A stretch of 64,000 nucleotides of DNA from Cellulosimicrobium arenosum. GTDB taxonomy: Bacteria > Actinomycetota > Actinomycetes > Actinomycetales > Cellulomonadaceae. The notes below the pieces were generated by a model that saw only the letters and a program-made list of their open reading frames with translations, was not told the origin of the DNA and did no database searches. Position 1 is the stretch's first letter, and each line of letters starts with the position of its first letter. The translations under genes and the position numbers were made by a program. The stretch is taken from contig NZ_JACYHB010000017.1 in NCBI RefSeq assembly GCF_014837295.1, positions 1 to 64,000 of the forward strand, given 5' to 3'. Below are positions 36,623 to 52,277 of the stretch, piece by piece.

Positions 36623-38244
36623 GTGAGCCTCCTCAGCTCGGCAAGTCGGAGTCGCAGACCGGATGCGGCGTCGCCGGCGAGCGGCGGCTCGTCGAGCGCT
36701 GCCCGCACGGGTGCCGCCTCGGCGTCCACGACGGTGGTCGCACGGTCGGCGAGGTCCTCGGCGAGCGCGGTGACCAGGTCCTCGCCGTCGGTGGGCAGCG
36801 CCGTGGACGCCAGGTCGCGGGCGTCGTCGTCGCCGGTCGCAGCGACGAGCAGCACGACGGCCAGCCCCGTGGTCCCGAACGCCCGCACGGCGGCGAGCGC
36901 CTCCTCGGACCCGCCGGACGTCAGCCCGGTCACCGCGGTCACCGCCCGGTCGCACCACTCCTGGGCCTGCGCGGCGCTGCGCTCGTCGCGGACCGACGCC
37001 GCGTCGTCCGCGCCGACGAGGACGTCGTTCGCCCCCGGGAGCGGATCGTCGCCGCCGAGCGCGCTCTCGAGCGACACGTACGCGGCCGCGCCGTGGCCGG
37101 ACAGGGCGCGGGCCGCCGCGCCGCGCACCTCGGGCAGCAGCGTGGACAGTGCGCGGTCGCGCGCGCGACCGCGGCGCCGTCCGGACCGCACGACCCCGCC
37201 GCGCACCTTCACGCGGTCGATGCGCGCCTCGCTCGACACGTGTGCCCACGCCGCGCGCAGCGAACCCCGCGCCACGTCCCCGCGCGCGACGGATGCGCGC
37301 GCCGCCTCGCGCGACGGAGGCAGCGCGTCGTCGACCGCGCCGCGCAGTCGCGCTGCGGCCTCGACCTGTTCCTCGACCGCCTCGACCAGCCCGTCGACCC
37401 AGTCGGGCAGCGCGGCGAGAGAACCCTTGAGGGTGCGCACGATCACCGCGCGCGAGCGGTCCGGACCGGCGAGCATCGTCAGCCAGCGGGCGACCGGTGC
37501 GACGACGGACCGCTCCAGCAGACCCTCGTGCGGGCCGACGTCGGGCACGACGAACAGCGGAGCGTCGTCCATGCCGTGGTCGCGCAGGCGCTGCAGCAGG
37601 TCGCCGCGGATCGTCGTCAGCGTCTCCGGCGGGACCCGGTTGAGCACCATCGCCACGCTCGCACCCCGCTCCTTGGCGCGCGTGAGCGCCTGCCACGGCA
37701 GGGCGTCGCCGTACCGCGATGCCGTCGTGACGAACAACCACAGGTCGGCGGCCTCGAGCAGCAGACCCGCGGTGTCGCGGTTCGTGGACAGCAAGGAGTC
37801 GAGGTCCGGCGCGTCGAGGAGCGCCGTGCCCCGGGGGACGCCGTCGTGCTCGATCATGCGCGAGACCCGGGTCGCGGGTCCCTCGACCAGGACGTCGGCG
37901 TCGAGCGGGTTGAACGCGATGACCGGCTCGCGCGTCGTCGGCCGCAGCACCCCGGCCTGCGACACCTCCTCGCCGAGGAGGGAGTTGTACAGCGTGGACT
38001 TGCCCGCCCCGGTCGACCCCGCGACGACGACGATCGCGGGCGACGACAGCTCTTTGAGCCGCGGCAGCAGGTGCTCGTCGAGCTGGGTCAGCAGGCGTCC
38101 GCGAGAGGCCTCGGCCTCTGCCGTGTCGTCGAGCGCGAGCGGGAGCACGACCGCGGCGACGTCCCGGCGCAGGTCGCGCGCGACGTCGTAGACGGTCAGT
38201 CCCAGCTCGTCGGAGGCGCGCTCGGAGGCGGCTCGGGTTCTCAC
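36619..38244 (-). CDS. Dynamin-like GTPase (first pair, A partner)
   Basis: 541 residues, paralog of the protein at 30593-32536 but ~100 residues shorter at the C-terminus. G1 GSTGAGKS (76-83), switch RPTTREPV, G3 LLDAPDLDS, and a G4 of VLNRVPPET that lacks the specificity Asp. FVTTASRYGDALPWQAL matches the paralog. One weak hydrophobic segment (TTGLAVVLLVAATG) is present. GTG start at 38244; no strong ribosome site. The degenerate G4 in both A partners suggests altered nucleotide specificity or a regulatory role beside the B partner. Confidence 0.84.
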   Translation of the reverse strand: MRTRAASERASDELGLTVYDVARDLRRDVAAVVLPLALDDTAEAEASRGRLLTQLDEHLLPRLKELSSPAIVVVAGSTGAGKSTLYNSLLGEEVSQAGVLRPTTREPVIAFNPLDADVLVEGPATRVSRMIEHDGVPRGTALLDAPDLDSLLSTNRDTAGLLLEAADLWLFVTTASRYGDALPWQALTRAKERGASVAMVLNRVPPETLTTIRGDLLQRLRDHGMDDAPLFVVPDVGPHEGLLERSVVAPVARWLTMLAGPDRSRAVIVRTLKGSLAALPDWVDGLVEAVEEQVEAAARLRGAVDDALPPSREAARASVARGDVARGSLRAAWAHVSSEARIDRVKVRGGVVRSGRRRGRARDRALSTLLPEVRGAAARALSGHGAAAYVSLESALGGDDPLPGANDVLVGADDAASVRDERSAAQAQEWCDRAVTAVTGLTSGGSEEALAAVRAFGTTGLAVVLLVAATGDDDARDLASTALPTDGEDLVTALAEDLADRATTVVDAEAAPVRAALDEPPLAGDAASGLRLRLAELRRLT

Positions 38245-38343
38245 TGGTTCATAGTGACGGTTGCACCCGACGGTGCAAAACGTACGCGCCGGACCGGCCG
38301 GGCCGAGCCCTTCCCGTGCAGGTGCGCACTACGATGGGCGCGC

Positions 38344-38419
<76 letters not shown>

Positions 38420-38555
38420 CGTGCACAGTGCTGACGGATTCGCCCCAGGACCCGCCGTACCGGTCGTCGGTCGCGGCCCGCGGCGACGTGCCCATGGGGA
38501 GCTCTCACCCCCGCACACCCCCTGAGACGGTCAAGTAGGCGTCAGGGTGCGCCGA

Positions 38556-38561
38556 TATACT
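38556..38561 (+). promoter_or_regulatory. -10 box of the telA signalling operon
   Basis: TATACT in a GC-rich setting, 62 bases before the telA ATG. The region 18-19 bases upstream reads GGTCAAGTA, a poor -35. A leader of about 55 bases would result. The other bases of 38420-38623 hold no gene. Confidence 0.5.
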
Positions 38562-38623
38562 CGCCGGACGCCGGAGTCGGTGACCGGCAGGCGACCGAGA
38601 CAGCGCACGAGCGAAGGATCGAG

Positions 38624-39841
38624 ATGACCGAGGCAGCAGCCCTTCAGCCCCCCGAGCCCAGCGAGACGCTCACGCTCAGCGCGCCCGAGCCGGTGAAGCC
38701 GGTCGCCACCACCCAGGCTCCGGCGATGGCACCGAAGGTCGACCCCGCCGCAGTCCCGGGCCTGCAGGCCAAGGTGAGCTCCTACGTCGACCAGCTCATG
38801 TCCACGGACACGCGCTCGCCGGAGTTCGCCGCGCAGGCGGACGACGTCCGCAAGATGGGCGACCAGGACATCCGCGCCGCCGCGGACGTGTCCAACCGCA
38901 TGCTGGAGATGCCGGTCCGCGAGCTCAAGGAGGGTGGTGTCTCGGAGAGCTCGAAGGTCAGCCAGTCCCTCCTCGAGCTGCGCCGGACGGTCGAGGAGCT
39001 CGACCCGAGCGAGGCGACGTTCGGCAAGAAGCTGCTCGGGTTCCTCCCGTTCGGGGACAAGCTGACCGACTACTTCCGCCGCTACGAGTCCTCCCAGTCC
39101 CAGCTCAACGCGATCGTGCAGTCGCTCTACAACGGCCAGGACGAGCTCCGCAAGGACAACGCGGCGCTGAACCTGGAGAAGCAGAACCTCTGGGACACCA
39201 TGGCGCGACTGAACCAGTACATCTACATCGCGGAGAACCTCGACAAGGCGCTGGCGACGAAGATCGCCGAGCTCGAGGCCTCCGACCCGGAGCGGGCCCA
39301 GGCGCTGCGCGAGGACGTGCTGTTCTACGTCCGCCAGAAGCACCAGGACCTGCTCACCCAGCTCGCGGTGTCCATCCAGGGCTACCTGGCGATGGACATC
39401 ATCATGAAGAACAACGTCGAGCTCATCAAGGGCGTCGACCGCGCCACCACGACGACCGTCGCCGCCCTGCGCACCGCGGTGATCGTCGCCCAGGCGCTGG
39501 CCAACCAACGGCTGGTGCTGGACCAGATCACGGCGCTGAACACCACGACGTCGAACATGATCGCCTCGACCTCGAAGATGCTCGCGGACCAGTCCGCGAC
39601 CATCCAGTCGCAGGCGGCGAGCGCGACCGTGGGGATCCCGCAGCTGCAGCAGGCGTTCCAGAACATCTACGCCACGCTGGACTCGATCTCCACGTTCAAG
39701 ACGCAGGCGCTGGACTCGATGTCGCAGACCATCGGGGTGCTGGAGACCGAGACGACCAAGGCCAACGAGTACCTCGAGCGCGCGCGCCGGTCCGACTCCT
39801 CGCAGGTCGGCAACGGCTCGCTCGACATCGGCCGGGTCTGA
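38624..39841 (+). CDS. telA: TelA family (toxic anion resistance) protein
   Basis: 405 residues, almost wholly helical, matching the TelA family (Pfam toxic anion resistance). Conserved-looking stretches are FGKKLLGFLPFGDKLTDYFRRYESSQSQLNAIVQSLYNGQDELRKDNAAL, EKQNLWDTMARLNQYIYIAENLDKAL and the C-terminal TTTTVAALRTAVIVAQALANQRLVLDQI. TelA proteins were named for tellurite resistance but are mostly linked to general envelope or chemical stress, often next to VWA and TerD proteins. ATG at 38624 with AAGGA. First gene of the signalling operon; the next gene follows after 84 bases. Confidence 0.93.
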   Translation: MTEAAALQPPEPSETLTLSAPEPVKPVATTQAPAMAPKVDPAAVPGLQAKVSSYVDQLMSTDTRSPEFAAQADDVRKMGDQDIRAAADVSNRMLEMPVRELKEGGVSESSKVSQSLLELRRTVEELDPSEATFGKKLLGFLPFGDKLTDYFRRYESSQSQLNAIVQSLYNGQDELRKDNAALNLEKQNLWDTMARLNQYIYIAENLDKALATKIAELEASDPERAQALREDVLFYVRQKHQDLLTQLAVSIQGYLAMDIIMKNNVELIKGVDRATTTTVAALRTAVIVAQALANQRLVLDQITALNTTTSNMIASTSKMLADQSATIQSQAASATVGIPQLQQAFQNIYATLDSISTFKTQALDSMSQTIGVLETETTKANEYLERARRSDSSQVGNGSLDIGRV

Positions 39842-39925
39842 GCACCCCTGGCGACCACGACGGCCGGGACGACCGGCACCACCCCGATCAGGCACCGACG
39901 ACGCGAACGGATGGGCGAGACGTAG

Positions 39926-40507
39926 ATGGGCTGGTTCTCCGACGTCATCGGGCGTCTGGCGGGGCGCCCCGACGAGCCCCCCGCGCTCGCGCTGCCGGCC
40001 CCGCCCACGGCGGCGGACATCCTCGCGGCCGCGGAGCGCGTCGAGCAGCAGATCGAGGGACGGGTGCCGCCGGCGGTGACCGCGCGCGTGCACCGCATCA
40101 CGGGCACGGTCGAGGAGATGGTGCCGCGCCTGGACCGCGTCGGCGGTGGGTCGCAGCAGGCGCACACGGTCGTCGCGACGGCGACGAGCTACCTGCCGGA
40201 GGCCGTCGGCGCGTACCTGCGGCTGCCCCGCGACTTCGCCGACCGGCGGGTCGTGGCGAACGGCAAGACGTCCCTGATGCTGCTGTGCGACCAGCTCGAC
40301 CTGCTCGGCGTCACGCTCGACAAGATCTCCGACGCGGTCTCGCGCGCCGACGCCGCGGCGCTCGTCGCCCACGGCGCGTTCCTCGCGGACAAGTTTCGCG
40401 ACTCCTCGATCGCGCTGGCCCCGGGCGCCGGGGCCGGTACCCCGCAGCCCGGCTCTCCCCCGGCGGGCGGCCCGCCGACCACCCACGGACGACTGGAGGC
40501 CCCGTGA
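39926..40507 (+). CDS. Uncharacterised helical protein of the TelA-PknG operon
   Basis: 193 residues, no recognised domain. It starts MGWFSDVIGRLAGRPDEPP, a possibly amphipathic N-terminal helix, then an Ala-rich region, a helical core (SYLPEAVGAYLRLPRDFADRRVVANGKTSLMLLCDQLDLLGVTLDKISDAVSRADAAALVAHGAFLADKF) and a Gly/Pro tail. The core resembles short helical proteins that accompany TelA, but I cannot name a family with confidence. The stop overlaps the next gene by GTGA, which argues for a functional link to the AAA protein. Confidence 0.8.
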   Translation: MGWFSDVIGRLAGRPDEPPALALPAPPTAADILAAAERVEQQIEGRVPPAVTARVHRITGTVEEMVPRLDRVGGGSQQAHTVVATATSYLPEAVGAYLRLPRDFADRRVVANGKTSLMLLCDQLDLLGVTLDKISDAVSRADAAALVAHGAFLADKFRDSSIALAPGAGAGTPQPGSPPAGGPPTTHGRLEAP

Positions 40508-42174
40508 CGAGCGCACCCGACCTCGCCGCCACGCTCGTCACGCTCGCCGACACGGCGCGCGCCGCGGGCGTCGACCCCGACGCCGCGCTCGACGAGGGCG
40601 CGCGCCTCGCCGCGGCCGTCGCCGAGTCGTCCGCCGGGGCCCCGGCGGCCTGGCTCGCCGCGCTCGGTCGCGACCCGGGAGCGACGGGGGCGTTCTTCAC
40701 CGCGGCGTCCAGCGCGCGCCGCTGGCGATCGGCGCCGACCGACGTCCTCGCCGGGCTGGTCGCCGCGCGCTCCACCCACGCGGCGGCGTACGGGCAGGCG
40801 CTGGCGGACGTCGCGGCGTCGGCCGCGACCCTCGGCGCCCCCGGCCGGCACGTCGCGGGCAGTGCCGCGGCGACGGCGTCCGTCCAGCGCACCGCGGCCG
40901 CGGGGCCCGCTACCGGCTCGCCCGTCCCCGGACTCCCGGGCCCGCCGCCGGCCCGCCCCCGGGGCGGTCCTCTCACCTCCCGCGGCGGCGGGTCGTCCCT
41001 CGACCTCGGTGACCTGTCCGCGCTCGGCGGTCTCGCCGGCATCACCCGCTCCGCGCCGCCGCAGGTGCCGTCCGTGGCGGGGATCCTCGACGCGCTCGGG
41101 CGCACCACTTCCACCGCCTCGCCCGACCAGCCGCCGGCCGACCAGCCGCCGGCCGACCACCAGCCGGCGGCCACCGGCCCGGGCAAGGCTGCGACGTCGG
41201 GCACGGGGGACGCGGCCGTCGCGGCCGAGGGCGAGACGCGGGACGAGCCGCTGCCGACGCTGGAGGAGCTGCTCGCGGACCTCGACGCGCTGACCGGGCT
41301 GACTCGCGTCAAGGACGAGATCCACCGGCAGACGGAGCTGCTGCGCGTCGAGAAGCTGCGCACGGAGGCCGGGCTGACCCGCCCGACGCTCACGCGCCAC
41401 CTCGTCTTCCTCGGCAACCCGGGCACGGGCAAGACGACGGTCGCCCGGCTCGTCGCGGGCATCTACCGCGCGCTCGGTCTGCTCGCGAAGGGCCAGCTGG
41501 TCGAGGTGGACCGTTCCGAGCTCGTGGCGGGCTATCTCGGCCAGACGGCGGTCAAGACCTCGGAGGCGGTGGCGACCGCGATCGACGGCGTGCTGTTCGT
41601 CGACGAGGCCTACGGGCTCGCGGAGGACCAGTACGGCGCCGAGGCGATCACCACGCTCGTCAAGGACATGGAGGACCACCGCGACGAGCTCGTCGTCGTC
41701 GTCGCGGGCTACCCCGGGCCGATGGGCGAGTTCCTCGCCACGAACCCCGGCCTCGAGTCACGCTTCGCGACGACGATCACGTTCGAGGACTACACCGACG
41801 CAGAGCTGCGCGCGATCTTCGCGAGCATGGCCGCGCAGGCGGACTTCGAGCCCGCGCCCGGCGCGCTCGACGTGTTCGAGCGGCTCGCGGGGGCCCAGCC
41901 CCGCACCGAAGGGTTCGGCAACGCCCGCTGGGCGCGCAACGTGCTCGACGCCGCGATCTCTCGGCACGCCTGGCGCCTCAAGGACGTCGCCGAGCCCACC
42001 CTGGACGAGCTGCGCCTGCTGCAGCCCGCAGACCTCGTGGACGGCGAGGGAGCGCCGGAGCTGCTGGCGACCCTCGAGCCCCCCGGCACCGCGTCCGACG
42101 ACCATCCCGCGACGATCGAGACGGCCGAGTCGGCGGAGTCGACCGAGCCCTCCACAGCCGAGGAGAACGCATGA
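40504..42174 (+). CDS. CbbX/SpoVK-type AAA+ ATPase
   Basis: 556 residues. Residues 1-~250 are Ala/Pro-rich with low-complexity repeats (QPPADQPPADHQPA). The AAA domain starts at about 255 (LEELLADLDALTGLTRVKDEIHRQ), with Walker A GNPGTGKT (304-311), Walker B VLFVDEAYGL (363-372), sensor VVVAGYPGPMGEFLATNPGLESRF and the Arg-finger region. This is the CbbX/EccA-like clade, whose members remodel protein complexes; EccA acts in type VII secretion and CbbX reactivates Rubisco. No ESX or Rubisco gene is nearby, so the target is probably a product of this operon. GTGA overlap upstream, ATGA overlap downstream. Confidence 0.9.
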   Translation: MTSAPDLAATLVTLADTARAAGVDPDAALDEGARLAAAVAESSAGAPAAWLAALGRDPGATGAFFTAASSARRWRSAPTDVLAGLVAARSTHAAAYGQALADVAASAATLGAPGRHVAGSAAATASVQRTAAAGPATGSPVPGLPGPPPARPRGGPLTSRGGGSSLDLGDLSALGGLAGITRSAPPQVPSVAGILDALGRTTSTASPDQPPADQPPADHQPAATGPGKAATSGTGDAAVAAEGETRDEPLPTLEELLADLDALTGLTRVKDEIHRQTELLRVEKLRTEAGLTRPTLTRHLVFLGNPGTGKTTVARLVAGIYRALGLLAKGQLVEVDRSELVAGYLGQTAVKTSEAVATAIDGVLFVDEAYGLAEDQYGAEAITTLVKDMEDHRDELVVVVAGYPGPMGEFLATNPGLESRFATTITFEDYTDAELRAIFASMAAQADFEPAPGALDVFERLAGAQPRTEGFGNARWARNVLDAAISRHAWRLKDVAEPTLDELRLLQPADLVDGEGAPELLATLEPPGTASDDHPATIETAESAESTEPSTAEENA

Positions 42175-43520
42175 CGAGCACCCCGGTCCGTCCGGCGAGC
42201 CCGCCCGTCCAGGGCGCAGCGCCGCCGCACCGCACCGACCCCGACCCCGGCGGCGCCGACCCGGCCCCTGCCGCGGCGAGCACGGGCATGGCCCGGGCCC
42301 GTGGCGCGCTGCGCCGCACCCCGGGCCAGCTGCGGCTCGTCCTCGTGCTGTGCGTGCTCGCGACGCTCGTGGTGGGCCTGCTCGGCTTCCAGGCCGGCCG
42401 GGTCCAGTCGTCCGCGCTCGAGGCCGCGAGCGCGGACTCGGCGCAGCTCGTGGGGGTGCAGGAGGTCCGCAACGCCCTCGTCGCCGCGGACGCGACCGCG
42501 ACCGGGTCGTTCCTCGTGGGCGGTCTCGAGCCGACGGAGCAGCGTGCGCGCTACGACGACCTCGTCGACACCGCCGCGGCCGGCCTCGCGGAGCTCTCCG
42601 GCAGCAACGCGGCCGACTCCGAGCTGCTGGGTCAGGTCGCGTCCGACCTCACCGTCTACACCGGTCTCGTCGAGCGGGCACGTGCGAACAACCGCCAGGG
42701 CTTCCCCGTCGGCGCCGCCTACCTCGACCAGGCCTCGACCATCCTGCGCGAGCAGATGCTCCCCGCGCTCGACGAGGTCGTGGTGGACGACGCCGACCGG
42801 GTCGCCGCGGACTTCTCCGGGGTGCGCAACGCGTTGTGGGTCCTCGCGGGTGCCCTCGTCGCGCTCGCCGTGCTCGTCGTCTGCCAGATGTGGCTCGCGC
42901 GCCGCACGCACCGGGTCCTGAACGTCGGGCTCGCCGTGGCGACGGGGCTGATCCTCGTCGTCGGGGTCGCCGGGACGATCATGCTCTCGAGCGCGAGCTC
43001 GCGCGCGCACGACGTGCGCGACGGGCCCTACGCGGCCACGCTCGCCGCGTCGCAGGCGTACTCGCTCGGGAACGACGCCAAGTCGATGGAGGCCTTCACG
43101 CTCATCAAGCGCGGGTCGGGACAGTCCTACGAGGACGCGTTCGTCGAGGCGACCGCCGACGCGGCCGAGCGCCTGGACACGGCGCAGTCCGACGGCGTGC
43201 TCGACGACACGACGGCGACGGCGTTGGACGACTGGGTCGCGCAGCACGCCGAGATCCGGGCGCTGGACGACGGCGGCGACTGGGACGCCGCCGTCGAGCT
43301 CGCGACGAGCACGGGCGAGGACAGCCCCAACGCCGCGTTCGCCGCGTTCTCCGACGCGGCGCGGGCGGACATCGAGGCGGGTGCAGCCCAGACGCGCGAC
43401 GACCTCGCCTCGGCCGGCACGACCTCGGCCGTCGCCGGCTGGCTGCTGCTGGCGGCCGGGCTCGTCGCGGCACTTCTCGCCTGGCGCGGGGTCACAGCAC
43501 GACTGGAGGAGTACCGGTGA
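42171..43520 (+). CDS. glnX: GlnX-like four-helix membrane protein
   Basis: 449 residues. Four membrane helices: about 54-76, 221-243, 250-272 and 420-438, leaving two outer domains of ~145 residues each (77-220 and 273-419), both helical. This topology and length match M. tuberculosis GlnX (Rv0412c), which sits beside GlnH and PknG and relays amino-acid binding across the membrane to PknG. The outer domains resemble four-helix-bundle sensor modules. The N-terminal 50 residues are Pro/Ala-rich and cytoplasmic. Joined by four-base overlaps to the AAA gene before and the glnH-like gene after it. Assignment rests on topology and neighbours. Confidence 0.8.
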   Translation: MTSTPVRPASPPVQGAAPPHRTDPDPGGADPAPAAASTGMARARGALRRTPGQLRLVLVLCVLATLVVGLLGFQAGRVQSSALEAASADSAQLVGVQEVRNALVAADATATGSFLVGGLEPTEQRARYDDLVDTAAAGLAELSGSNAADSELLGQVASDLTVYTGLVERARANNRQGFPVGAAYLDQASTILREQMLPALDEVVVDDADRVAADFSGVRNALWVLAGALVALAVLVVCQMWLARRTHRVLNVGLAVATGLILVVGVAGTIMLSSASSRAHDVRDGPYAATLAASQAYSLGNDAKSMEAFTLIKRGSGQSYEDAFVEATADAAERLDTAQSDGVLDDTTATALDDWVAQHAEIRALDDGGDWDAAVELATSTGEDSPNAAFAAFSDAARADIEAGAAQTRDDLASAGTTSAVAGWLLLAAGLVAALLAWRGVTARLEEYR

Positions 43521-44539
43521 GCACGACACCCCGCACCACGACCCGTCGGACGAGCACCCGCCGTGGCGCCAGGGCGCGCGCGGCGATCGGCACGGGCCTC
43601 GCGTCCGCGCTGCTGCTCCTCACCGCGTGCTCGGGACCGACCGGTGCCGACGACCTGCGCCTCGAGGCGCCCGAGCCCACGGCGGAGGAGGAAGCACCGG
43701 CGCCGTCGAGCACCGCGCCCGTCGAGTGCGAGGACCCGCTCGCGTCGTACGCGCCCGAGGGCGACCTGCCGGCACCGGGCTCGCTGCCGTCGGGCAGCAC
43801 GATGGCAGAGATCCGCGAGCGCGGCTCGCTCGTCGTCGGCGTGTCCGCGGACACGCTGCGCATGGGCTCGCGCAACCCGCTGTCGGGGACGATCGAGGGC
43901 TTCGACATCGACGTGCTGCACGAGGTGTCGCGCGCCATCTTCGCCGACCCCGACCGCCTCCGGTTCCGGGTGATCACCTCGGGCCAGCGCATCGAGGTCC
44001 TCGAGAACGGCGACGTCGACCTCGTCGCCCGGGCCTTCACCATCAACTGCGAGCGCTGGGACCAGATCGCGTTCTCCGCGGAGTACTACCACGCGGGCCA
44101 GAAGGTGCTCGTCGCGCGCAACTCGGACGCGCAGGGCATCGACGACCTCGAGGGAGAGCGGGTGTGCGCGCCCGAGAGCACCACGACGCTCACCCGGCTC
44201 GAGGAGTACCCGGGGATCGAGCCCGTGCCGGCTGCGACGCACACACAGTGCCTCGTGCTGTTCCAGCAGGGCCAGGTGGACGCGATCACGGGGGACGACA
44301 CCATCCTCGCGGGCTTCGCCGCGCAGGACCCGTACGCCAAGGTGGTGGGCGAGGCCATCAGCGACGAGCCGTACGGCATCGGCATCCCGCCCGAGAACGT
44401 CGACATGGTGCGGTTCGTCAACGGGGTGCTCGAACAGATGGTGGCCGACGGGACGTGGGCCGACCTGTACGACCGCTGGCTCGCCGAGCTCGGCCCCGCA
44501 CCGGAGCCGCCGGAGCCGGTGTACGGTCGCGCCCCGTGA
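43517..44539 (+). CDS. glnH: GlnH-like amino-acid-binding lipoprotein
   Basis: 340 residues. Twin-Arg-like basic start, hydrophobic stretch and lipobox LLTAC with lipidated Cys38, then an acidic linker and a family 3 periplasmic-binding-protein domain: GSLVVGVSADTLRMGSRNPLSGTIEGFDIDVLHEVSRAIF, GDVDLVARAFTINCERWDQIAFSAEYYHAGQKVLV, and GQVDAITGDDTILAGFAAQDP. Cys residues in TINCERW, GERVCAPES and HTQCLVLF suggest disulfides. No transporter permease or ATPase lies nearby, so it should act as a sensor and not as transport component. In M. tuberculosis GlnH binds Asp, Asn, Glu and Gln and signals to PknG through GlnX. GTGA overlap with the glnX-like gene. Confidence 0.87.
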   Translation: MSTTPRTTTRRTSTRRGARARAAIGTGLASALLLLTACSGPTGADDLRLEAPEPTAEEEAPAPSSTAPVECEDPLASYAPEGDLPAPGSLPSGSTMAEIRERGSLVVGVSADTLRMGSRNPLSGTIEGFDIDVLHEVSRAIFADPDRLRFRVITSGQRIEVLENGDVDLVARAFTINCERWDQIAFSAEYYHAGQKVLVARNSDAQGIDDLEGERVCAPESTTTLTRLEEYPGIEPVPAATHTQCLVLFQQGQVDAITGDDTILAGFAAQDPYAKVVGEAISDEPYGIGIPPENVDMVRFVNGVLEQMVADGTWADLYDRWLAELGPAPEPPEPVYGRAP

Positions 44540-45642
44540 GCCGCACCACCGCTCCCGAGGCGCCCGGGCAGCTCGGCGAGGCGATCCCCGCGCGCGAGCT
44601 CCTGACCTACCTCGGCGCGCTGGAGACCTGGCTCGACGACCGGCGCACCGAGCTCGACCGGCTCGACGCGGCCGCTCAGGCCGCTGCGACCCCGGACGCG
44701 TACACCTCGGACCTCGTGCTGGCGCTGACCCTGTGGCAGGCGATCCGTACGCGCACGGACGAGATGCGCGTCGCGTGGGACTCCGGACGGGTCGACGCGG
44801 TCGCGCGGGAGAAGCTGTCCCGGCTCATCTGGGGCCGCCTCGACTCCGGGTCGGGAGCGGCGCTCGTCTCGCTCGTGGAGGCCGTCAAGCTCTGCGACGC
44901 GCTCGTCGTGCAGCTGCGCACCCGGCTGTCGTTCGACCCGCACACCGCCGACCACGTCGCGCGGCTCCGCGGTCTGCGCGCCGAGCTGGTGCGGTGCGAA
45001 GACCTCGCCGGCCCCGACACCGAGGCGCGCGGACGGGTCGAGGCGCTCCGCCGTCGGCTCGAATCCGTCACCGAGCGCGCGACGCGCGGTGCCGACGTGT
45101 CGGGTCCCCTGGCCGAGCTCGAGGCGGACACCGCGCGCGCCGAGCGCGACCTGATCGTCGGCTCGTCGCAGCGCCGCGAGCTCGCCCGGGACCAGGCGCG
45201 CACGTCGACCCAGCGCGACGCGCTCGAGGCCCGCGAACCCGTGCTGCACGACCTGGTCGCACGGTGCCGGCGCGAGATCGCCCGTCCGCCGCGCCTCGCC
45301 GTCCCGGACGTCTCTCGGCTCGGACCGGTGCCCGACTCACGGTTCGAGCTCGACGCCTACGCCGGTCGCCTCGCGACCGTGGGTCGCGCCATGGAGCACG
45401 TCGAGGACGCCTACGCCGCCCCGCTGCGCGAGCGCGCCGAGCTGCGCTACCGCCTCGAGGGTCTCGCGGCGAAGGCGCAGGCGAACGGCCGCTCCGCCTC
45501 CCCCACCGTCCGTGCCGGCCTCACCGAGGCCCGCGATGCCGTCGAGGCCGTCCCGTGCGACGTCACGCTCGCGCGGTTCCTCGTCGAGCAGTACCAGTTC
45601 CTCGCCCGAGACCTGCCCACCCCGGAAGGAGCGCCGTCGTGA
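44536..45642 (+). CDS. Helical/coiled-coil protein of the PknG operon
   Basis: 368 residues, rich in Arg, Glu, Leu and Ala, predicted almost wholly helical with heptad-like stretches (for example 145-230, LRGLRAELVRCEDL... and LESVTERATRG). No signal peptide or membrane helix; no catalytic motif recognised. By position between the sensor lipoprotein and the kinase it is a candidate adaptor or scaffold. GTGA overlaps on both sides show tight translational coupling. I do not recognise a characterised family. Confidence 0.8.
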   Translation: MSRTTAPEAPGQLGEAIPARELLTYLGALETWLDDRRTELDRLDAAAQAAATPDAYTSDLVLALTLWQAIRTRTDEMRVAWDSGRVDAVAREKLSRLIWGRLDSGSGAALVSLVEAVKLCDALVVQLRTRLSFDPHTADHVARLRGLRAELVRCEDLAGPDTEARGRVEALRRRLESVTERATRGADVSGPLAELEADTARAERDLIVGSSQRRELARDQARTSTQRDALEAREPVLHDLVARCRREIARPPRLAVPDVSRLGPVPDSRFELDAYAGRLATVGRAMEHVEDAYAAPLRERAELRYRLEGLAAKAQANGRSASPTVRAGLTEARDAVEAVPCDVTLARFLVEQYQFLARDLPTPEGAPS

Positions 45643-47981
45643 CGACTGCGACCATCCCGTGCTCGGAGCCCGGTTGCCCGGGCACCATCGAGGACGGCTA
45701 CTGCAACGTGTGCGGCGCTCCCGCGGGCGGCATGTCGCCCGACGGGGGGGCCTCGACCTCGAGCCCGACCGGCACGTCCGCCACCGCCGCCTCCCCGTCC
45801 GCGATGCTCGGCACCGGGTTCGCCGAGGCGGGTCCGGCGACCCGGGGCACCGGCGCCGTCGACCCCGACGCCGAGCGCTCGACACGCACGGGCCGCACGA
45901 GCTCGAGCCGCCTCGCGACCGCTGCGCTGGGCTCGGCCCGCACGGTCGCCACGGGGTCGTCCGCGACCCGGAGGGTCGGGACCTCCTCGACCCGGCTGCG
46001 CGGGCACCGCCTCGGCGCAGGCCTGACGACGGTGCCCTCGACGCCCGTCACCGACCCGCTGCAGGCGGTCATGGCGGTGCCCGAGGTCCCCGAGCGCAAG
46101 CGGTACTGCCCGGCGTGCGGCGAGAAGGTCGGGCGCGCGCGCGACGGTCAGCCCGGCCGTACCTCCGGGTTCTGCGCGCACTGCGGCAACCGCTACGACT
46201 TCACGCCCCAGCTCGAGCCGGGCTTCGTCGTCGGCGGGCAGTACGAGGTCGTCGGGTGCCTGGCCCACGGCGGCCTGGGCTGGATCTACCTGGCGCGCGA
46301 CCAGAACGTCAACGGCCGCTGGGTGGTGCTCAAGGGTCTGCTCAACTCGGGCGACCCCGACGCGTACGCTGCCGCGATCTCGGAGCGGCAGTTCCTCGCC
46401 GAGGTCGAGCACCCGCTCATCGTGGAGATCTACAACTTCGCGATGTACGACGGCGCCGGCTACACCGTCATGGAGTACGTCGGTGGTCTCTCGCTCAAGG
46501 AGATCCTCCAGGAGCGCCGCGAGGAGAGCGGTGGTGCGGTCGACCCGCTGCCCGTCGACCAGGCGCTCGCGTACGTGCTCGAGGTCCTGCCGGCGTTCGC
46601 CTACCTGCACGACCACGAGCTGCTGTTCTGCGACTTCAAGCCCGACAACATCATCCAGCAGGGCGACGGGGTCAAGCTCATCGACCTGGGCGGCGTGCGA
46701 CGTGCGGACGACATGACGTCGGCGATCTTCGGGACCGTCGGCTACCAGGCGCCCGAGGTCGCCGAGGTCGGCCCGTCCGTGGCGTCCGACATCTACACGA
46801 TCGGACGCACGCTCGCGACCCTCGTCCTGGACTTCCGCGGGAACACGTCGACCTACATGGCCTCCCTGCCGCCGGTCGCGGACACCCCGATCTTCCAGAC
46901 CTACGACTCGTTCTACCGGCTCCTGGCGAAGGCGTGCGCCCTGAACCCGGCGGACCGGTTCGCCACGGTCGACGAGATGCGCCACCAGGTGGTCGGCGTG
47001 CTGCGCGAGGTCGTCGCGACCGACCGCGGACCGGGGAGCACCGCGCTGCACTCCGCGGCGTCCGTCCTGTTCGACGCCCCGGTCGCCGACGTCGCCGAGC
47101 GCCCCATGGCGTGGGACGAGCTGCCTGCCCTGCGGCGCGACGAGCACGACCCGATGGCGAGCTGGCTCGCCGGGGTGAACATCGCCGACCCCGAGGCCCG
47201 CATCCTGGCCCTGATGGACGCCCCCGAGTCCACGATCGAGGTCCGGCTCGCCATCGCGCGTGCCGCGCTCGAGGCCCGGTGGTGGGGCGACGTCGACAAC
47301 ACCATCTCGAACATCCTCACCGACGACCCGTGGGAGTGGCGTGCCGCGTGGGTGGCGGGGCTCAAGAACCTCGCGCGCGGCGAGGTCGTCGAGGCGCGCG
47401 CGTCGTTCAACGCGGTCTACGGGCAGGTCCCGGGCGAGCTCGCACCCAAGCTCGCGCTCGCGACCGCGTGCGAGCTCAGCGCCGAGCCCGAGATCGCGGA
47501 GTCGCTCTACGTGATCTGCGCGCGCTCGGACGCGAACTACACCGCGCCCGCCGCGTTCGGGCTGACCCGGATCCGGCGCGCCCGCGGCGACCTCGACGGG
47601 GCGCTGCACGCGCTCGACCTCGTGACGCCCACGCGCAGCTCGTACGTCGAGTCGCGCGTCCTGCGGGCACACCTGCTCGCCGACTCCGGACGAGGGCTGC
47701 CCGCCCTCGCCGACGCGATGGCGAGCGTCGGACAGGTGACGATCGCACCACGGGAACGGGCCGAGCTCTCCGTGGGCGTGCTGCGCTCCGCGCTCGACAC
47801 CGTCACGCAGTCCGGCCCGTCGCCGACCACGCAGATCGCGGGCGTCCCCGCGGACGAGCCGGCGCTGCGCGACGCCCTCGAAGGGGCGTACCGCGAGCTG
47901 GCCGCCCTGACCGACTCGCGCGACGAGCGCATCTCGCTCGTGGACAGCGCGAACGACGTCCGCCGCTGGACCGCACGATGA
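45639..47981 (+). CDS. pknG: PknG-like serine/threonine protein kinase
   Basis: 780 residues. Order: an extra N-terminal zinc ribbon (Cys8, 13, 22, 25); a Ser/Thr/Arg-rich linker; the PknG rubredoxin-like zinc module (Cys157, 160, 179, 182) ending NRYDFTPQLEPG; kinase domain with GGLGWIYLA, Lys232 (VVLKGL), catalytic loop FCDFKPDNI with Asp332, and DLG (Asp349) in place of DFG; a C-terminal TPR-type domain. M. tuberculosis PknG shares the rubredoxin, GGLGWIYLA and TPR parts and phosphorylates the FHA protein GarA to control glutamate metabolism. The first zinc ribbon is additional to that plan. GTGA overlap upstream and ATGA overlap with the phosphatase gene downstream. Confidence 0.92.
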   Translation: MTTATIPCSEPGCPGTIEDGYCNVCGAPAGGMSPDGGASTSSPTGTSATAASPSAMLGTGFAEAGPATRGTGAVDPDAERSTRTGRTSSSRLATAALGSARTVATGSSATRRVGTSSTRLRGHRLGAGLTTVPSTPVTDPLQAVMAVPEVPERKRYCPACGEKVGRARDGQPGRTSGFCAHCGNRYDFTPQLEPGFVVGGQYEVVGCLAHGGLGWIYLARDQNVNGRWVVLKGLLNSGDPDAYAAAISERQFLAEVEHPLIVEIYNFAMYDGAGYTVMEYVGGLSLKEILQERREESGGAVDPLPVDQALAYVLEVLPAFAYLHDHELLFCDFKPDNIIQQGDGVKLIDLGGVRRADDMTSAIFGTVGYQAPEVAEVGPSVASDIYTIGRTLATLVLDFRGNTSTYMASLPPVADTPIFQTYDSFYRLLAKACALNPADRFATVDEMRHQVVGVLREVVATDRGPGSTALHSAASVLFDAPVADVAERPMAWDELPALRRDEHDPMASWLAGVNIADPEARILALMDAPESTIEVRLAIARAALEARWWGDVDNTISNILTDDPWEWRAAWVAGLKNLARGEVVEARASFNAVYGQVPGELAPKLALATACELSAEPEIAESLYVICARSDANYTAPAAFGLTRIRRARGDLDGALHALDLVTPTRSSYVESRVLRAHLLADSGRGLPALADAMASVGQVTIAPRERAELSVGVLRSALDTVTQSGPSPTTQIAGVPADEPALRDALEGAYRELAALTDSRDERISLVDSANDVRRWTAR

Positions 47982-49195
47982 GCGGCGCGGACGCGGGGCC
48001 GGGACCCGCCACCCAGCCGGTCGACGGCCCCCTCGACTGCCCGGCGTGCGGGGAGTCCGCAGCTCCGGGCAGCCGCTTCTGCGAAGGGTGCGGGACACCG
48101 CTCCGCACGGCTGCGCAGGTTCCCCTCGTGATCGACCCGGACCCGCCTGCGGCCGAGAGCGGGTCCGGGCCGGGGTCGGGGACCACGGCGCCCACGGCCC
48201 CGGCGTCCGACCCGGCGACCGCCGCACGGCCGTGCGTCCGCTGCGGTGGCGCGGTGGCCGACGACGGCTACTGCACCGAGTGCGGCGAGCCCGCGGCCTC
48301 CGAGCGCGACCACTGGTCGGAGATCCCCGCGACGTGGGTCGCCGGTGTCTGCGACCGGGGGATCCGGCACAGCCGCAACGAGGACGCGATGGCGCTGCAC
48401 GCCTCGGCCGACGCCGGCGCGACCGGGTTCGCGGCACTCGTCGTGTGCGACGGCGTGTCCGCGGCCCCCGACTCGGACGTCGCGAGCCTCGCCGCCGCGA
48501 CCGCGGCACGCGACGCCCTCGCTCGTGGCGGCCCGGGCGGCGCGGAGCCGGTCACCGGGACGCTCTCGGCCCGGATGGGGAGCTGGAGCGCGCTCGTCGC
48601 GAGCTCGTCCCAGGTCGCCAACGACGCGATCCTCGCGACGGTCGGCGAGATGGCCGACCGCGACAACCCGCCGTCGTGCACGTTCGTCGCGGCCGTCGTC
48701 GACGGCCCGCTGGTGGTGGTCGGCTGGGTCGGCGACTCGCGCGTCTACTGGGTGCCCGACGACGGTGACGCCCGTCAGCTCAGCGTCGACGACTCGTGGG
48801 CGCAGGAGATGATCGCCCAGGGGATCCCGCGGGCGGACGCCGAGAACGCCCCGCAGGCGCACGCCATCACGCGCTGGCTCGGGCCGGACGCCCCCGACCC
48901 GGCGGCCCGCACCGCAGCGACCGTCCCGGAGGGTCCGGGCTGGGTCCTGGTCTGCTCGGACGGGCTGTGGAACTACTGCTCGCCGGCCGACGACATGGCG
49001 ACCCTCGTGCGCGCCACCCAGGAGGCCGTCGGGACGCAGCCCGGGGCGAACGGTCCCGATCCCGCAGACCTCGCCGGCGCGCTCGTCCGCTGGGCGAACG
49101 CCCAGGGTGGCCGGGACAACATCACGGTCGCCCTCGCCCGGTTCGCACCGGCGGCGGGCACCCCGGACGAGAACGCATCCGCCTCCACCCGATAA
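47978..49195 (+). CDS. PP2C-type serine/threonine phosphatase with double zinc ribbon
   Basis: 405 residues. Two zinc ribbons lie in the N-terminus (Cys21, 24, 35, 38 and Cys86, 89, 99, 102) joined by a Pro/Ser/Thr linker. The metal-dependent phosphatase domain starts at about 118: RHSRNEDAMAL (metal Asp), VVCDGVSAAPDSD, WVGDSRVYWV, CSDGLWNY and GGRDNITVALARF are the PP2C motifs in order. Encoded directly after the kinase with an ATGA overlap, so it is the likely opposing enzyme. The ribbons resemble those in the kinase and FHA protein, suggesting a common partner or location. Confidence 0.93.
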   Translation: MSGADAGPGPATQPVDGPLDCPACGESAAPGSRFCEGCGTPLRTAAQVPLVIDPDPPAAESGSGPGSGTTAPTAPASDPATAARPCVRCGGAVADDGYCTECGEPAASERDHWSEIPATWVAGVCDRGIRHSRNEDAMALHASADAGATGFAALVVCDGVSAAPDSDVASLAAATAARDALARGGPGGAEPVTGTLSARMGSWSALVASSSQVANDAILATVGEMADRDNPPSCTFVAAVVDGPLVVVGWVGDSRVYWVPDDGDARQLSVDDSWAQEMIAQGIPRADAENAPQAHAITRWLGPDAPDPAARTAATVPEGPGWVLVCSDGLWNYCSPADDMATLVRATQEAVGTQPGANGPDPADLAGALVRWANAQGGRDNITVALARFAPAAGTPDENASASTR

Positions 49196-49227
49196 CCTGC
49201 CGGAACAGCAACAGCGAAGGAGCCCCC

Positions 49228-50508
49228 ATGGCCGAGTTCTCCGCCGAGGTCTACCAGAACGAGTTCCTGTCGGACGGCGCGACCGACGTGCACGCCATCG
49301 TGACGGTGACCTGCACGGGCGCCGGCACGGCCGGCGCCGAGTCGGGCGGCGGCGTCGCCGAGATCATCATGGTCGACACCTCGGGTTCGATGTCGGGGCG
49401 GAACATCGAGGCCGCCAAGCATGCCGCCTCGGTCGCCGTCGACCAGATCCTGGACGGCACGTGGTTCGCCATCATCGGGGGCTCGCACGTCGCGAACCGC
49501 GCCTTCCCGTACCCGAACGCGCGCGTGGCGATGGTCCAGATGGAGCCCGGCGCTCGTGCCGAGGCCAAGCGCGCGATCTCGATGATGACGCCGGGCGGCG
49601 GCACCGCGATGAGCACGTGGCTGCGTCTGGCCGACCAGCTCTTCGAGACGCTCCCCCGGTCGACGCAGCGCCACGCGATCCTGCTCACCGACGGGAAGAA
49701 CGAGTCGGAGCCGCGGGCGAACCTGTCGTCGGCGGTGCGCGACGTCACGGGCCACTTCCAGTGCGACGCGCGCGGCGTCGGTTCGCGCTGGCAGGTCGAC
49801 GAGCTGCGCGAGATCTCGACCGCCCTGATCGGCACGGTCGACCTCATCGCCGACCCCAGTCAGATCGCCGCGGACTTCGAGGCGCTGATGCGTGCCTCGA
49901 TGGCACGCGGGGTCGCGTCCGCCGAGCTGCGCGTCTGGGCCCCGCAGGGCTCGACCGTGCTGTTCGTGCGCCAGGTGGCGCCCACGGTGGAGGACCTGAC
50001 GACCCGGCGCAGCGAGGCCGGCCCCCTGACCGGCGGCTACCCCACGGGGTCGTGGGGCGACGAGTCGCGCGACTACCACGTCGCGGTGCGTGTCGCGTCC
50101 AAGCCCGTGGGGTCCGAGCAGCTCGCCGCGCGCGTCCAGCTCGCGGTGAACGGCGAGGTCGTGTCGTCGGGCCTGGTCAAGGCCAAGTGGTCGGCCGACG
50201 AGGCGCTCACCACCCGGATCAGCCCGGAGGTGGCGCACTACACGGGTCAGACCGAGCTCGCGACCGCCATCCAGGAGGGGCTCGCCGCCAAGGCGTCGGG
50301 CGACGAGGCGACCGCGACGGTCAAGCTGGGCCGGGCCGTCCAGCTCGCGCAGGAGACCGGCAACGACGAGGCGACGTCGCGGCTGCGCCGCGTCGTCGAC
50401 ATCGACGACGAGGAGCACGGGACCGTGCGGCTCAAGCGCAACACGTCCACGCTGGACGAGATGGCGCTCGACACCGCCTCGACGAAGACCACGCGAGTCC
50501 GGCGGTGA
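49228..50508 (+). CDS. VWA-domain protein
   Basis: 426 residues, no signal peptide. The von Willebrand A domain spans about 40-220; the metal-dependent adhesion site is DTSGSMSG (Asp50, Ser52, Ser54) with PGGGTAMSTWL supplying the Thr and ILLTDGKNE the Asp. Then a beta-rich domain (about 225-340) and a helical C-terminus. It starts 32 bases after the phosphatase with its own GAAGGAG ribosome site, the only real gap inside the operon, which may allow a different expression level. VWA proteins with TelA and phosphorylation genes are part of described Ter-type stress modules. Confidence 0.92.
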   Translation: MAEFSAEVYQNEFLSDGATDVHAIVTVTCTGAGTAGAESGGGVAEIIMVDTSGSMSGRNIEAAKHAASVAVDQILDGTWFAIIGGSHVANRAFPYPNARVAMVQMEPGARAEAKRAISMMTPGGGTAMSTWLRLADQLFETLPRSTQRHAILLTDGKNESEPRANLSSAVRDVTGHFQCDARGVGSRWQVDELREISTALIGTVDLIADPSQIAADFEALMRASMARGVASAELRVWAPQGSTVLFVRQVAPTVEDLTTRRSEAGPLTGGYPTGSWGDESRDYHVAVRVASKPVGSEQLAARVQLAVNGEVVSSGLVKAKWSADEALTTRISPEVAHYTGQTELATAIQEGLAAKASGDEATATVKLGRAVQLAQETGNDEATSRLRRVVDIDDEEHGTVRLKRNTSTLDEMALDTASTKTTRVRR

Positions 50509-51356
50509 GCGCGCTCTGCCCGAACGGGCACGCCTCGGGCTCGACGGACTACTGCGACGTCTGCGGCATGCCCATGGGAGTCCCCGACCCTGCTCCCGCC
50601 GTCGACCCGGGAGCAGCCGTCGCCGGGTCCACGGCCGGCGCAGCCGCGCCCGAGGCGTGCCCCCACTGCGGCGCGGAGGCGGCGTCCGGCGCGCTCTTCT
50701 GCGAGAACTGCGGCTACGACTTCACGACCGGGTCGCTGCCCGACCCGGTCGAGGCTCCGTCCGCGCTCTCGCTCGACCCGCCGACGCCACCCGGGCGACC
50801 GGCCCCGGCCGCACCCTCGGTCTCGGACCCCGACCCGACCCCGGGTCCGAACCCGGGGTCGGCCGGGTCCGACGATCCCGACGAGCGCACGGCCTCGGGG
50901 ACGAGCCCTGCCCCGTCGGGCGGCCACCTGGCCGCGCCCCCGGTACCGGGTCCGGACGAGTGGGTCGTGGAGATCTGGATCGACCCGGACTGGTACACCG
51001 AGCAGCAGGCCGAGGACCCGATGCCCTCGGCGGGCCTCCCGGGCCTCGTGGTGCTTCGCGAACGCAGCGTCCTGGTCGGGCGCCCGTCGGTCTCGCGCGG
51101 CATCCACCCGCTGGTCGACTGCGGCGCCGACACCGGGGTGTCGCGTCGGCACTGCCAGCTGACGACGGACGGTCAGCGCTGGTGGGTCGAGGACCTGCAG
51201 TCGTCCAACGGGACGTACGTGAGTCCCGCGGGCGAGGCTCTCCCGAGCGACCCCGTTCCTCCGGGGCAGCGGCAGGAGCTCGGTGACGGGGACCGGATCT
51301 ACGTCGGCGCCTGGACCCGGTTGGTCGTCCGCAAGGCGCTCCCGGGCGAGGTCTGA
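50505..51356 (+). CDS. FHA-domain protein with double zinc ribbon
   Basis: 283 residues. Two N-terminal zinc ribbons (Cys5, His9, Cys17, Cys20 and Cys52, 55, 66, 69), a Pro/Ser/Asp-rich linker (about 80-150), and a C-terminal FHA domain with the phosphothreonine-binding motifs LVGRPS, SRRHCQL and SSNGTYV. It should read Thr phosphorylation set by the kinase and removed by the phosphatase. It differs from GarA/OdhI, which have a short N-terminal ETTS phospho-site and no zinc ribbon; the only Thr-Thr pair here is at 74-75. GTGA overlap with the VWA gene. Last gene of the operon. Confidence 0.92.
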   Translation: MSALCPNGHASGSTDYCDVCGMPMGVPDPAPAVDPGAAVAGSTAGAAAPEACPHCGAEAASGALFCENCGYDFTTGSLPDPVEAPSALSLDPPTPPGRPAPAAPSVSDPDPTPGPNPGSAGSDDPDERTASGTSPAPSGGHLAAPPVPGPDEWVVEIWIDPDWYTEQQAEDPMPSAGLPGLVVLRERSVLVGRPSVSRGIHPLVDCGADTGVSRRHCQLTTDGQRWWVEDLQSSNGTYVSPAGEALPSDPVPPGQRQELGDGDRIYVGAWTRLVVRKALPGEV

Positions 51357-51377
51357 CACCGGACGGTCACCACGGGA

Positions 51378-51443
51378 TGGAGGTTTCCTCCACCCGAACC
51401 CGGCTCCCGACAGTCAGGGTCGGAGGATTCCTCCAAGCGCTTG
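51378..51443 (+). promoter_or_regulatory. Paired palindromes upstream of bioY, candidate operators
   Basis: TGGAGGTTTCCTCCA (51378-51392) and GGAGGATTCCTCC (51422-51434) are near-identical palindromes whose centres lie 43 bases apart. The second is followed at once by another palindrome, CAAGCGCTTG (51434-51443). They lie 20-90 bases after the FHA stop and 117-182 before bioY. Two copies of one dyad at about four helical turns suggest a repressor with looping or a cooperative pair. The last palindrome has the central AAGCGCTT seen in LacI-type operators. The regulator is unknown. Confidence 0.5.
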
Positions 51444-51559
51444 TGCGGTTCCCTGCAGGTCGGCCCCTCCCCGTGGTCCGCTTGCGCGACGGCGACGGCG
51501 TCGCGCGCGTACCAGAGTGGTCCGTGCCGACCGACCAGACCGCACGGAAGTGGAGCACC

Positions 51560-52258
51560 ATGCCCCAGACGCCTCCCGGCGCACCCACCGAGCCAGCCGA
51601 CACCACGGTGCCCGTCGGGCCCGCAGCTGCCGACCGGTCGGTGGGCCCCACCGACCGGGTGGAGGCCGCACCGTCGGCCGCGCCGGGCCGGGGTGCGAGC
51701 CGGTTCGCACTCGACGCGTCCGACGTCGCCCGGATCGCGACGTTCGCCGCGCTCGTCGCCGTCCTGGGCATGCCCGGGTCGGTCGCGTTGTTCGGCAGCG
51801 CGGTGCCGATCACGCTCCAGACGCTCGGCGTGATGCTCGCCGGGTCGATCCTCGGCGCGTGGCGCGGATTCCTCTCGGTCGCGACGTTCCTCGCGCTCGC
51901 CGCCGCCGGTCTGCCCGTGCTCGCCGGCGGGCGCGGTGGCCTCGCCGCGTTCGTCGGGCCGTCCGCGGGGTACCTGCTCGGGTTCCTCGCCGGCGCCGCG
52001 GCCGTGGGCTGGCTGGTCGACCACCTGCGCCGGGTCACGTTCTGGGGCGTCGCCGGCGCGTGCGTCGTCGGCGGCATCGCGGTCGTGTACGCGTTCGGGA
52101 TCCCGGTCCAGTCGCTCGTGACCGGCGTCCCGGTGTCCACCACCGCGCAGCTCTCGCTCGTGTTCCTTCCCGGCGACCTGATCAAGGCCGTGGCCGCGGC
52201 CGCCGTGACCGTCGGCGTGCTGCGGGCCTATCCCGCCGCCCGCCGCCCGCGCGCCTGA
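51560..52258 (+). CDS. bioY: Biotin ECF transporter S component BioY
   Basis: 232 residues; the first ~55 are a Pro/Thr-rich cytoplasmic extension, then six membrane helices. VPITLQTLGVMLAGSILGAWRGFLSVATFLALAAAGLPVLAGGRGGLAAFVGPSAGYLLGFL is the BioY signature. It binds biotin on the outer face and works with the BioM ATPase and BioN membrane protein encoded three genes downstream. ATG at 51560; an earlier ATG would add 61 residues of unlikely composition that overlap the palindromes. First gene of the biotin operon. Confidence 0.92.
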   Translation: MPQTPPGAPTEPADTTVPVGPAAADRSVGPTDRVEAAPSAAPGRGASRFALDASDVARIATFAALVAVLGMPGSVALFGSAVPITLQTLGVMLAGSILGAWRGFLSVATFLALAAAGLPVLAGGRGGLAAFVGPSAGYLLGFLAGAAAVGWLVDHLRRVTFWGVAGACVVGGIAVVYAFGIPVQSLVTGVPVSTTAQLSLVFLPGDLIKAVAAAAVTVGVLRAYPAARRPRA

Positions 52259-52277
52259 CACCTGCGAGAGTTGTCCG

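Follow-up and report, generated by a model that had tools for sequence, protein, structure and literature searches.

A conserved ten-gene PknG locus of Actinobacteria as a candidate sensor-to-effector signalling system

Does the run of ten genes around a GlnH-GlnX-PknG sensor in Cellulosimicrobium arenosum encode one signalling machine, and if so, what does its kinase act on? The genes, all on the plus strand, fill positions 38624-51356 of the window, a stretch of 64,000 nucleotides (contig NZ_JACYHB010000017.1, positions 1 to 64,000) from a 3.95 Mb genome. Six consecutive four-base overlaps (40504-40507, 42171-42174, 43517-43520, 44536-44539, 45639-45642 and 47978-47981) and a seventh between vwa and fha (50505-50508) leave only two true gaps, of 84 bp between telA and sml and 32 bp between pp2c and vwa. 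These gene models match those of an earlier description made from the letters alone (the sequence-only reading), bearing out its ten genes, their strand and their overlaps. Pfam and NCBIfam name eight of the ten proteins.

We propose that the ten genes form an operon for a single signalling machine. In a first step, which belongs to the family of a studied pathway, GlnH would bind an amino-acid-like ligand outside the cell and GlnX would relay this to the TPR domain of PknG. Conservation suggests the second, in which PknG would phosphorylate the Thr-rich C-terminal tail of the VWA protein. For the third, the archaeal ArnA/ArnB pair serves as template: the zinc-ribbon/FHA protein would sit loosely on the VWA protein through its ribbon and clamp onto it by FHA-phosphothreonine binding, while kinase and phosphatase would reach the VWA scaffold through N-terminal ribbons of their own and PP2C would erase the mark. 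Weakest is the fourth, in which the VWA/FHA state would control TelA, sml and the AAA+ protein, acting on the envelope or on stress resistance. The kinase may, besides, remain tied to 2-oxoglutarate metabolism by a GarA-like FHA protein encoded elsewhere. We infer every step after the sensor, and we give the whole chain, from sensor through PknG, VWA tail and FHA/PP2C to TelA/AAA+, slightly below an even chance of being correct.

Searches with PknG_rubred (PF16919) at E 0.001 matched 37 of 101 genomes at family level, 30 of 248 at order level and 144 of 394 at class level (37, 29 and 139 above the cut-off), in draws that overlap. Flanks were retrieved for 120 kinase loci, comprising all 36 other family places above the cut-off, 24 of the 27 further order places, and 60 loci hand-picked for spread from the class search and another kinase search. 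A named set added the 80 loci, best of 579, most similar to the window kinase and is biased accordingly to close relatives. Both sets overlap, and the 200 loci represent 183 distinct kinase-domain sequences. The loci served to build a profile of each of the ten families, which was then mapped back onto them; a gene was called present when it lay on the strand of the kinase within 9.5 kb, and zinc ribbons were counted by regular expression.

The exact ten-gene order recurs in 92 of 152 distinct, adequately flanked kinase loci from nine GTDB families. Within the window's own taxonomic order (families f1, f4, f80, f81, f83 and f85), 48 of 54 adequately flanked loci hold all ten genes in this arrangement, and the six exceptions have glnX-glnH-pknG, either by itself or accompanied by pp2c or an fha match. 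Outside it, the arrangement was found in f9 (3/3), f94 (1/1) and f119 (1/1). The named set shows it in 53 of 59 adequately viewed loci, the other six missing one to several genes; carriers include Cellulosimicrobium (which has the closest named kinases, at 82 % among the best 80 of 579), Cellulomonas, Oerskovia, Promicromonospora, Agreia, Kineosporia, Kribbella, Nocardioides and Terrabacter. By content, 95 of the 152 distinct loci combine telA, sml, aaa, cc, vwa and fha, three more hold telA, sml and cc in an otherwise incomplete set, and cc accompanies telA in 98 of 98. The lasting co-occurrence that the sequence-only reading proposed to look for is seen, and the separation in related genera that it named as counter-evidence is not.

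Gene content across the class is nested. Mycobacteria and their kin, as we read family f7, have glnX-glnH-pknG in 10 of 14 viewed loci. Seven-gene loci add cc, PP2C, VWA and FHA to this sensor, as in Streptomyces-type f6 (glnX-glnH-cc-pknG-pp2c-vwa-fha in 6/7, with weaker cc homologues) and f100 (cc-pknG-pp2c-vwa-fha-glnX-glnH in 8/19, with parts of that order in most others). TelA, sml and AAA+ are added only in the ten-gene loci. In G189, a genome of the same phylum and a different class, cc-pknG-pp2c-vwa-fha occurs with glnH and glnX on the opposite strand, so the kinase-to-fha core either predates the class or was transferred. The seven-type counts below keep 28 fully viewed loci apart from 14 contig-limited ones; among the 28, L259 is in fact of the ten-gene type, its aaa having been missed.

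Three genomes carry two PknG-type loci, one of them the three-gene form: G925 with a seven-gene partner (L193/L195), G856 likewise (L205/L204, near contig ends), and G501 with a ten-gene partner (L139/L140). In these genomes the extended form therefore appears to be a separate, paralogous system. Of the two seven-gene kinases, L195 and L204, each is the other's best match (763 and 793 bits); against three-gene kinases they reach at most 595 and 611 bits. Other second copies were noticed in G023 and G804, which hold a seven-gene locus and also a diverged pknG-vwa pair (L188, L157), and a Nocardia plasmid (L035, 844-11130) has a PknG-like kinase beside an amino acid permease and an NAD-glutamate dehydrogenase.

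The sensor is the part that we assign with high confidence. The membrane relay protein GlnX (42171-43520, 449 aa) scores 316.9 bits against NF058618 (cut-off 250) and 126.8 against the mycobacterial equivalog NF041460, short of its cut-off of 780. GlnH (43517-44539, 340 aa) is a solute-binding lipoprotein (PF00497, SBP_bac_3; lipobox by eye) whose residues 59-336 align to the M. tuberculosis GlnH structure 6h2t (E 9e-67). The Ser/Thr kinase PknG (45639-47981, 780 aa) has PF16919, PF00069 and PF16918 above cut-off, aligns over residues 122-776 to the M. tuberculosis structure 2pzi (E 1.7e-131), and has its catalytic motifs in place by eye (FCDFKPDN, with DLG replacing DFG). The sequence-only reading had proposed this same sensor. 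It is already known from mycobacteria and corynebacteria: passages of PMC6069109 describe GlnH binding Asp, Glu and Asn, a link of GlnX to PknG, and a three-gene glnH/glnX/pknG arrangement conserved in Actinomycetales and other Actinobacteria, and passages of PMC9769921 and PMC8546545 support the cascade in Corynebacterium, with a role for the TPR domain. In passages from the text (figures aside) of these three papers, neither TelA nor an operon PP2C, a VWA protein or a zinc-ribbon FHA protein is mentioned.

The ligand pocket has partly changed. Against the contact residues in PMC6069109, numbered here with a single offset chosen to agree with the residues named there, the window GlnH keeps R147, R169 and D250, has R for K161 and T for S164, and replaces T162 by A and W232 by H, which alters two of three contacts to the Asp side chain. 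Across ten-type loci (two fetch sets pooled, overlap kept), H replaces W232 in 96 of 114 proteins and position 162 holds A in 51, N in 39 and T in 23, while R169 (114/114) and D250 (111/114), which hold the amino and carboxyl groups of the amino acid, are kept. The f7 proteins keep W232 in 10 of 11. We expect an amino-acid-like ligand with an altered side-chain preference, and it may be another amino acid because side-chain contacts are lost and general residues kept. On this point the sequence-only reading, in which the lipoprotein binds an outside amino acid, calls for amendment.

The last gene of the run, fha (50505-51356, 283 aa; PF12773, PF00498), encodes a double zinc ribbon followed by an FHA domain. 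The product is not the GarA/OdhI counterpart: it reaches 29 bits against the OdhI model, whereas a separate gene on contig 1 of the same genome reaches 159 (cut-off 200) and encodes a protein with DTT before its FHA domain. The mycobacterial GarA gene likewise lies outside the pknG operon, so the locus's membership of the sensor family is untouched by this. A profile of 33 operon FHA proteins ranks ArnA first among PDB entries (8s05_C, E 3.1e-12; 5a8i, 3.8e-12), ahead of GarA (2.7e-10), and its positions 49-230 align to residues 17-216 of 8s05_C, from zinc ribbon through FHA; with the window protein as sole query, GarA comes before ArnA (2e-5 versus 1.4e-4). According to passages of PMC12852372, ArnA keeps hold of unphosphorylated ArnB by its zinc finger, and the FHA domain is recruited once ArnB is phosphorylated; ArnA binds the ArnB C-terminus in Sulfolobus (in part of PMC6509490), and PP2A undoes ArnB phosphorylation (in part of PMC7472852). 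The sequence-only reading had the phosphatase and the FHA protein set and read the output; eraser and reader remain their likely roles, but with a reader whose family profile is nearer to ArnA than to GarA.

N-terminal zinc ribbons are common to the FHA protein, the kinase and the phosphatase. PknG begins with one (CSEPGCPGTIEDGYCNVC), followed by a Thr/Ser-rich linker, rubredoxin, kinase and TPR parts, and the PP2C protein (47978-49195, 405 aa; PF13672, PF12773) begins with two. The PknG ribbon was found in all 112 parsed ten-type loci (two unparsed), 22 of 28 fully viewed and 14 of 14 contig-limited seven-type loci, 2 of 16 parsed three-gene loci, 2 of 8 four-gene loci and 14 of the 18 parsed loci that were of other type or limited in view; for PP2C, 97 of the 103 ten-type loci that could be parsed show both ribbons (nine unparsed). 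Over distinct loci, the PknG ribbon and vwa are both present in 117, both absent in 21 and discordant in 6 + 5, with three unparsed (p 8e-16, kinship ignored). L112 and L118-L120, four g212 loci that have neither vwa nor fha, are missing the PknG ribbon and retain one of the two in PP2C, and L122, which has an fha match and no vwa, also lacks the PknG ribbon. L172, L173 and L187 have no PknG ribbon, one PP2C ribbon (two CxxC pairs instead of four), no first FHA ribbon and an altered VWA tail. In some lineages the ribbons of kinase, phosphatase and FHA protein are thus lost together, or with the VWA protein.

The VWA protein (49228-50508, 426 aa; PF13768 and PF18571, VWA_3 and VWA_3_C) ends in a conserved Thr-rich tail (DEMALDTASTKTTRVRR, 50455-50505), the proposed PknG site and FHA ligand. 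One pattern fits this tail in all 111 ten-type loci with a vwa call (a further three ten-type loci lack such a call), and in 21 of 28 fully viewed and 12 of 14 contig-limited seven-type loci. Residues 3-426, tail included, align with a structure of the same family, 4fx5, which we take to be the vWA structure of the actinobacterium Catenulispora acidiphila. A vWA structure from that species is named ArnB-like in part of PMC12852372 (2026). ArnB phosphopeptides carry ETTRR-type sites (in part of PMC6509490), the GarA phosphosite is ETTS in the passages available, and by analogy we infer that the Thr-Thr sites of the tail resemble both. That the tail is phosphorylated by PknG and read by the FHA protein seems to us an even call. 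In the sequence-only reading the VWA protein was a Ter-type effector; it is better read as a kinase substrate and scaffold.

Upstream of the sensor lie telA (38624-39841, 405 aa; toxic anion resistance family, PF05816, 317 bits, E 1.2e-94), sml (39926-40507, 193 aa), which encodes an undescribed family and putative TelA partner, and a gene for a 556-aa AAA+ ATPase of the CbbX/SpoVK/EccA group (40504-42174; PF00004, PF17866). The latter misses the equivalog cut-offs of SpoVK, EccA and CbbX, which rejects it as any of the three proper, and its N-terminal half is unmatched. Neither sml nor cc (44536-45642, 368 aa), a putative coiled coil named so in the sequence-only reading, has a family at E 0.01; their members (36 for sml) give only scattered sub-threshold matches in Pfam, and their profiles no convincing match in the PDB. 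Between them the 36 sml members match 13 families (E up to 10, HMMER filters on), and XpaC, the TelA partner of Bacillus, is not one of these. Of 101 family genomes, 32 hold a strict sml match (E < 1e-70), and each of these also has PknG; five genomes have PknG without strict sml and 64 have neither (Fisher p 2e-21, kinship ignored). The weaker matches of G336, G352, G386, G387 and G363 belong to other genes, as does a second match in G315; those of G336 and G386 adjoin telA in a TerD-type cluster (TerD by reading of the sequence).

TelA also meets such proteins elsewhere. On plasmids of Sphaerotilus (E 3e-26) and Variovorax (E 4e-18), and in Nonomuraea, the sml profile finds matches near telA; each has a VWA protein between telA and sml, and a solute-binding domain was detected only in the Variovorax VWA protein. 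These two betaproteobacterial plasmids and Nonomuraea hold a kinase-free set (L290 5800-10513, L294 5817-10849, L292 5767-10246) of a protein with an N-terminal membrane stretch, TelA, VWA (in Variovorax carrying SBP_bac_11) and an sml homologue that also has a membrane stretch. A Streptomyces-type locus (L347, 3996-8534) shows the same set, its last protein looking alike and being missed by the sml profile. TelA and an sml relative stand in TerD-type clusters (L348 5053-6762 and L349 4334-6055 by reading; L293 5703-9298 annotated, with a weak sml match). In an f4 genome without a PknG match (L346, 5713-8561), telA is followed by the same AAA+ family, with no sml or other cluster gene in 16 kb. 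On a Vibrio plasmid (L296, 2136-9173), TelA has as neighbours proteins annotated as solute-binding, a VWA protein and parts of an ABC transporter, with no sml detected. That TelA meets VWA and solute-binding proteins in more than one setting supports TelA-sml as output of sensor modules solely through association. We regard TelA/AAA+ as the output of the ten-gene system only tentatively, well under even probability.

Several observations weigh against the proposed chain. Six distinct loci have vwa without a PknG ribbon and five the ribbon without vwa nearby; L159, L162 and L186 lack the PknG ribbon though PP2C has two, and L139, L178, L176 and L207 keep it without a vwa call. The informative losses come from few lineages (L172/L173/L187 from one GTDB family, L112/L118-L120 from one genus), and the ribbon counts depend on a regular expression. 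Six loci have an altered VWA tail though all ribbons are present. The match of the VWA profile to ArnB (E 1.4e-9) covers profile positions 42-214, which lie in the general VWA domain, and the unrelated VWA proteins 4cn8 and 9c4f score above ArnB. In passages of PMC6509490, the mapped ArnB sites lie in a helical bundle instead of an end tail, single-site changes fell short of abolishing function, and pairwise Ala changes in the bundle left motility control intact. Finally, TelA-sml occurs in TerD-type clusters and kinase-free operons and telA-aaa without a kinase in L346, so TelA need not depend on PknG. A bacterial counterpart of the ArnA/ArnB switch in an extended PknG operon, made of a VWA scaffold, three ribbon proteins, a tail mark and a TelA/AAA+ effector, strikes us as plausible but somewhat short of an even prospect.

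We consider it unlikely that the locus serves ordinary GlnH-GlnX-PknG-GarA control, in which the kinase would target 2-oxoglutarate dehydrogenase and the GarA-like protein encoded elsewhere, leaving the remaining seven genes as a loosely related neighbourhood. PknG, GlnX and GlnH do belong to that family, and the GarA-like gene with DTT before its FHA domain is present elsewhere in the genome; yet in many families the seven additional genes stay in the same order and on one strand, some genomes carry both three-gene and extended loci, and the kinase differs by a ribbon that mostly tracks vwa. To a similar degree we doubt that the locus is an envelope-stress or antimicrobial resistance device, in which TelA, sml and AAA+ act and the sensor detects a compound released by neighbours or by damage instead of a nutrient. 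The TerD-type clusters (L348, L349, L293), the kinase-free TelA-sml-VWA sets (L290, L294, L292) and the departure of the GlnH pocket from the Asp/Glu type argue for it, but GlnH retains R169 and D250 almost without exception, and the seven-gene relatives have no TelA in the locus.

Less probable again are two independent modules, telA-sml-aaa and the kinase set, that are merely co-transcribed. The separate occurrence of telA-aaa (L346) and telA-sml (L348, L349) would fit, but strict sml is found in none of the 64 family genomes without PknG, and in the window's taxonomic order none of six adequately viewed vwa-less loci keeps telA, sml or aaa. Chance neighbours are ruled out by the ten-gene order kept across many families.

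A tRNA-Arg(tct) gene about 200 bp upstream of telA (38344-38419, plus strand) probably lies outside the system; a tRNA-targeted island was rejected, any tRNA lying within 1.5 kb upstream of telA in only 6 of 108 pooled ten-gene loci, five times a tRNA-Arg(tct). No terminator-like or sigma-70-like sites appear in 38150-52400, a result of little weight as shuffles yield 0.9 and 0.2. The next gene downstream of fha (51377-52258) looks by eye like a BioY-type membrane protein.

Of the ten genes, those of sensor and kinase are the only ones studied in depth, and PknG has been studied mainly through GarA/OdhI, as passages of PMC6069109, PMC8546545 and PMC9769921 indicate. Open-licence literature yielded no description of the complete ten-gene assembly, and open-licence text none uniting TelA, FHA, VWA, PP2C and a kinase, or PknG with toxic anion resistance in actinobacteria; papers found for PknG together with ArnB were unrelated. 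If the proposed chain is right, PknG-type kinases would gain a second branch apart from GarA, with its own eraser, scaffold, reader and TelA/AAA+ output. Actinobacteria would then have two PknG branches, sometimes with two paralogous kinases per cell; TelA, widely annotated and poorly understood, would gain a regulator; and a bacterial pathway would be tied to an archaeal nutrient switch.

Among known systems, the CbbX/SpoVK/EccA proteins share AAA with AAA_lid_6, whereas the protein here stays below all three equivalog cut-offs. Ter-type modules share TelA (PF05816) with an sml-type partner (L348, L349), but no TerD or TerC match was found at E 0.01 among the ten proteins, the only ones scanned, and a kinase, a solute-binding protein and an FHA protein stand instead. 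The GlnH-GlnX-PknG-GarA/OdhI cascade, in passages of PMC6069109, PMC8546545 and PMC9769921, has the same lipoprotein, relay and rubredoxin-kinase-TPR protein in one operon (the Corynebacterium kinase being without the rubredoxin part), but here seven more genes, an extra kinase zinc ribbon, an operon FHA protein other than GarA, and T162A and W232H in GlnH are added. The Sulfolobus ArnA-ArnB-ArnC-PP2A system differs in using PP2A in place of PP2C; the present locus adds a solute-binding protein/GlnX sensor, ribbons on kinase and phosphatase as well, and TelA/AAA+, and its phosphosite is predicted at the end tail. In parts of PMC6509490, PMC7472852 and PMC12852372, the Arn system comprises a zinc-finger/FHA reader, a VWA partner, a Hanks-type kinase and a phosphatase and responds to nutrient state; the locus described here has a candidate for each of these parts and is proposed to respond likewise, and its FHA protein shares with ArnA the order of zinc finger and then FHA domain.

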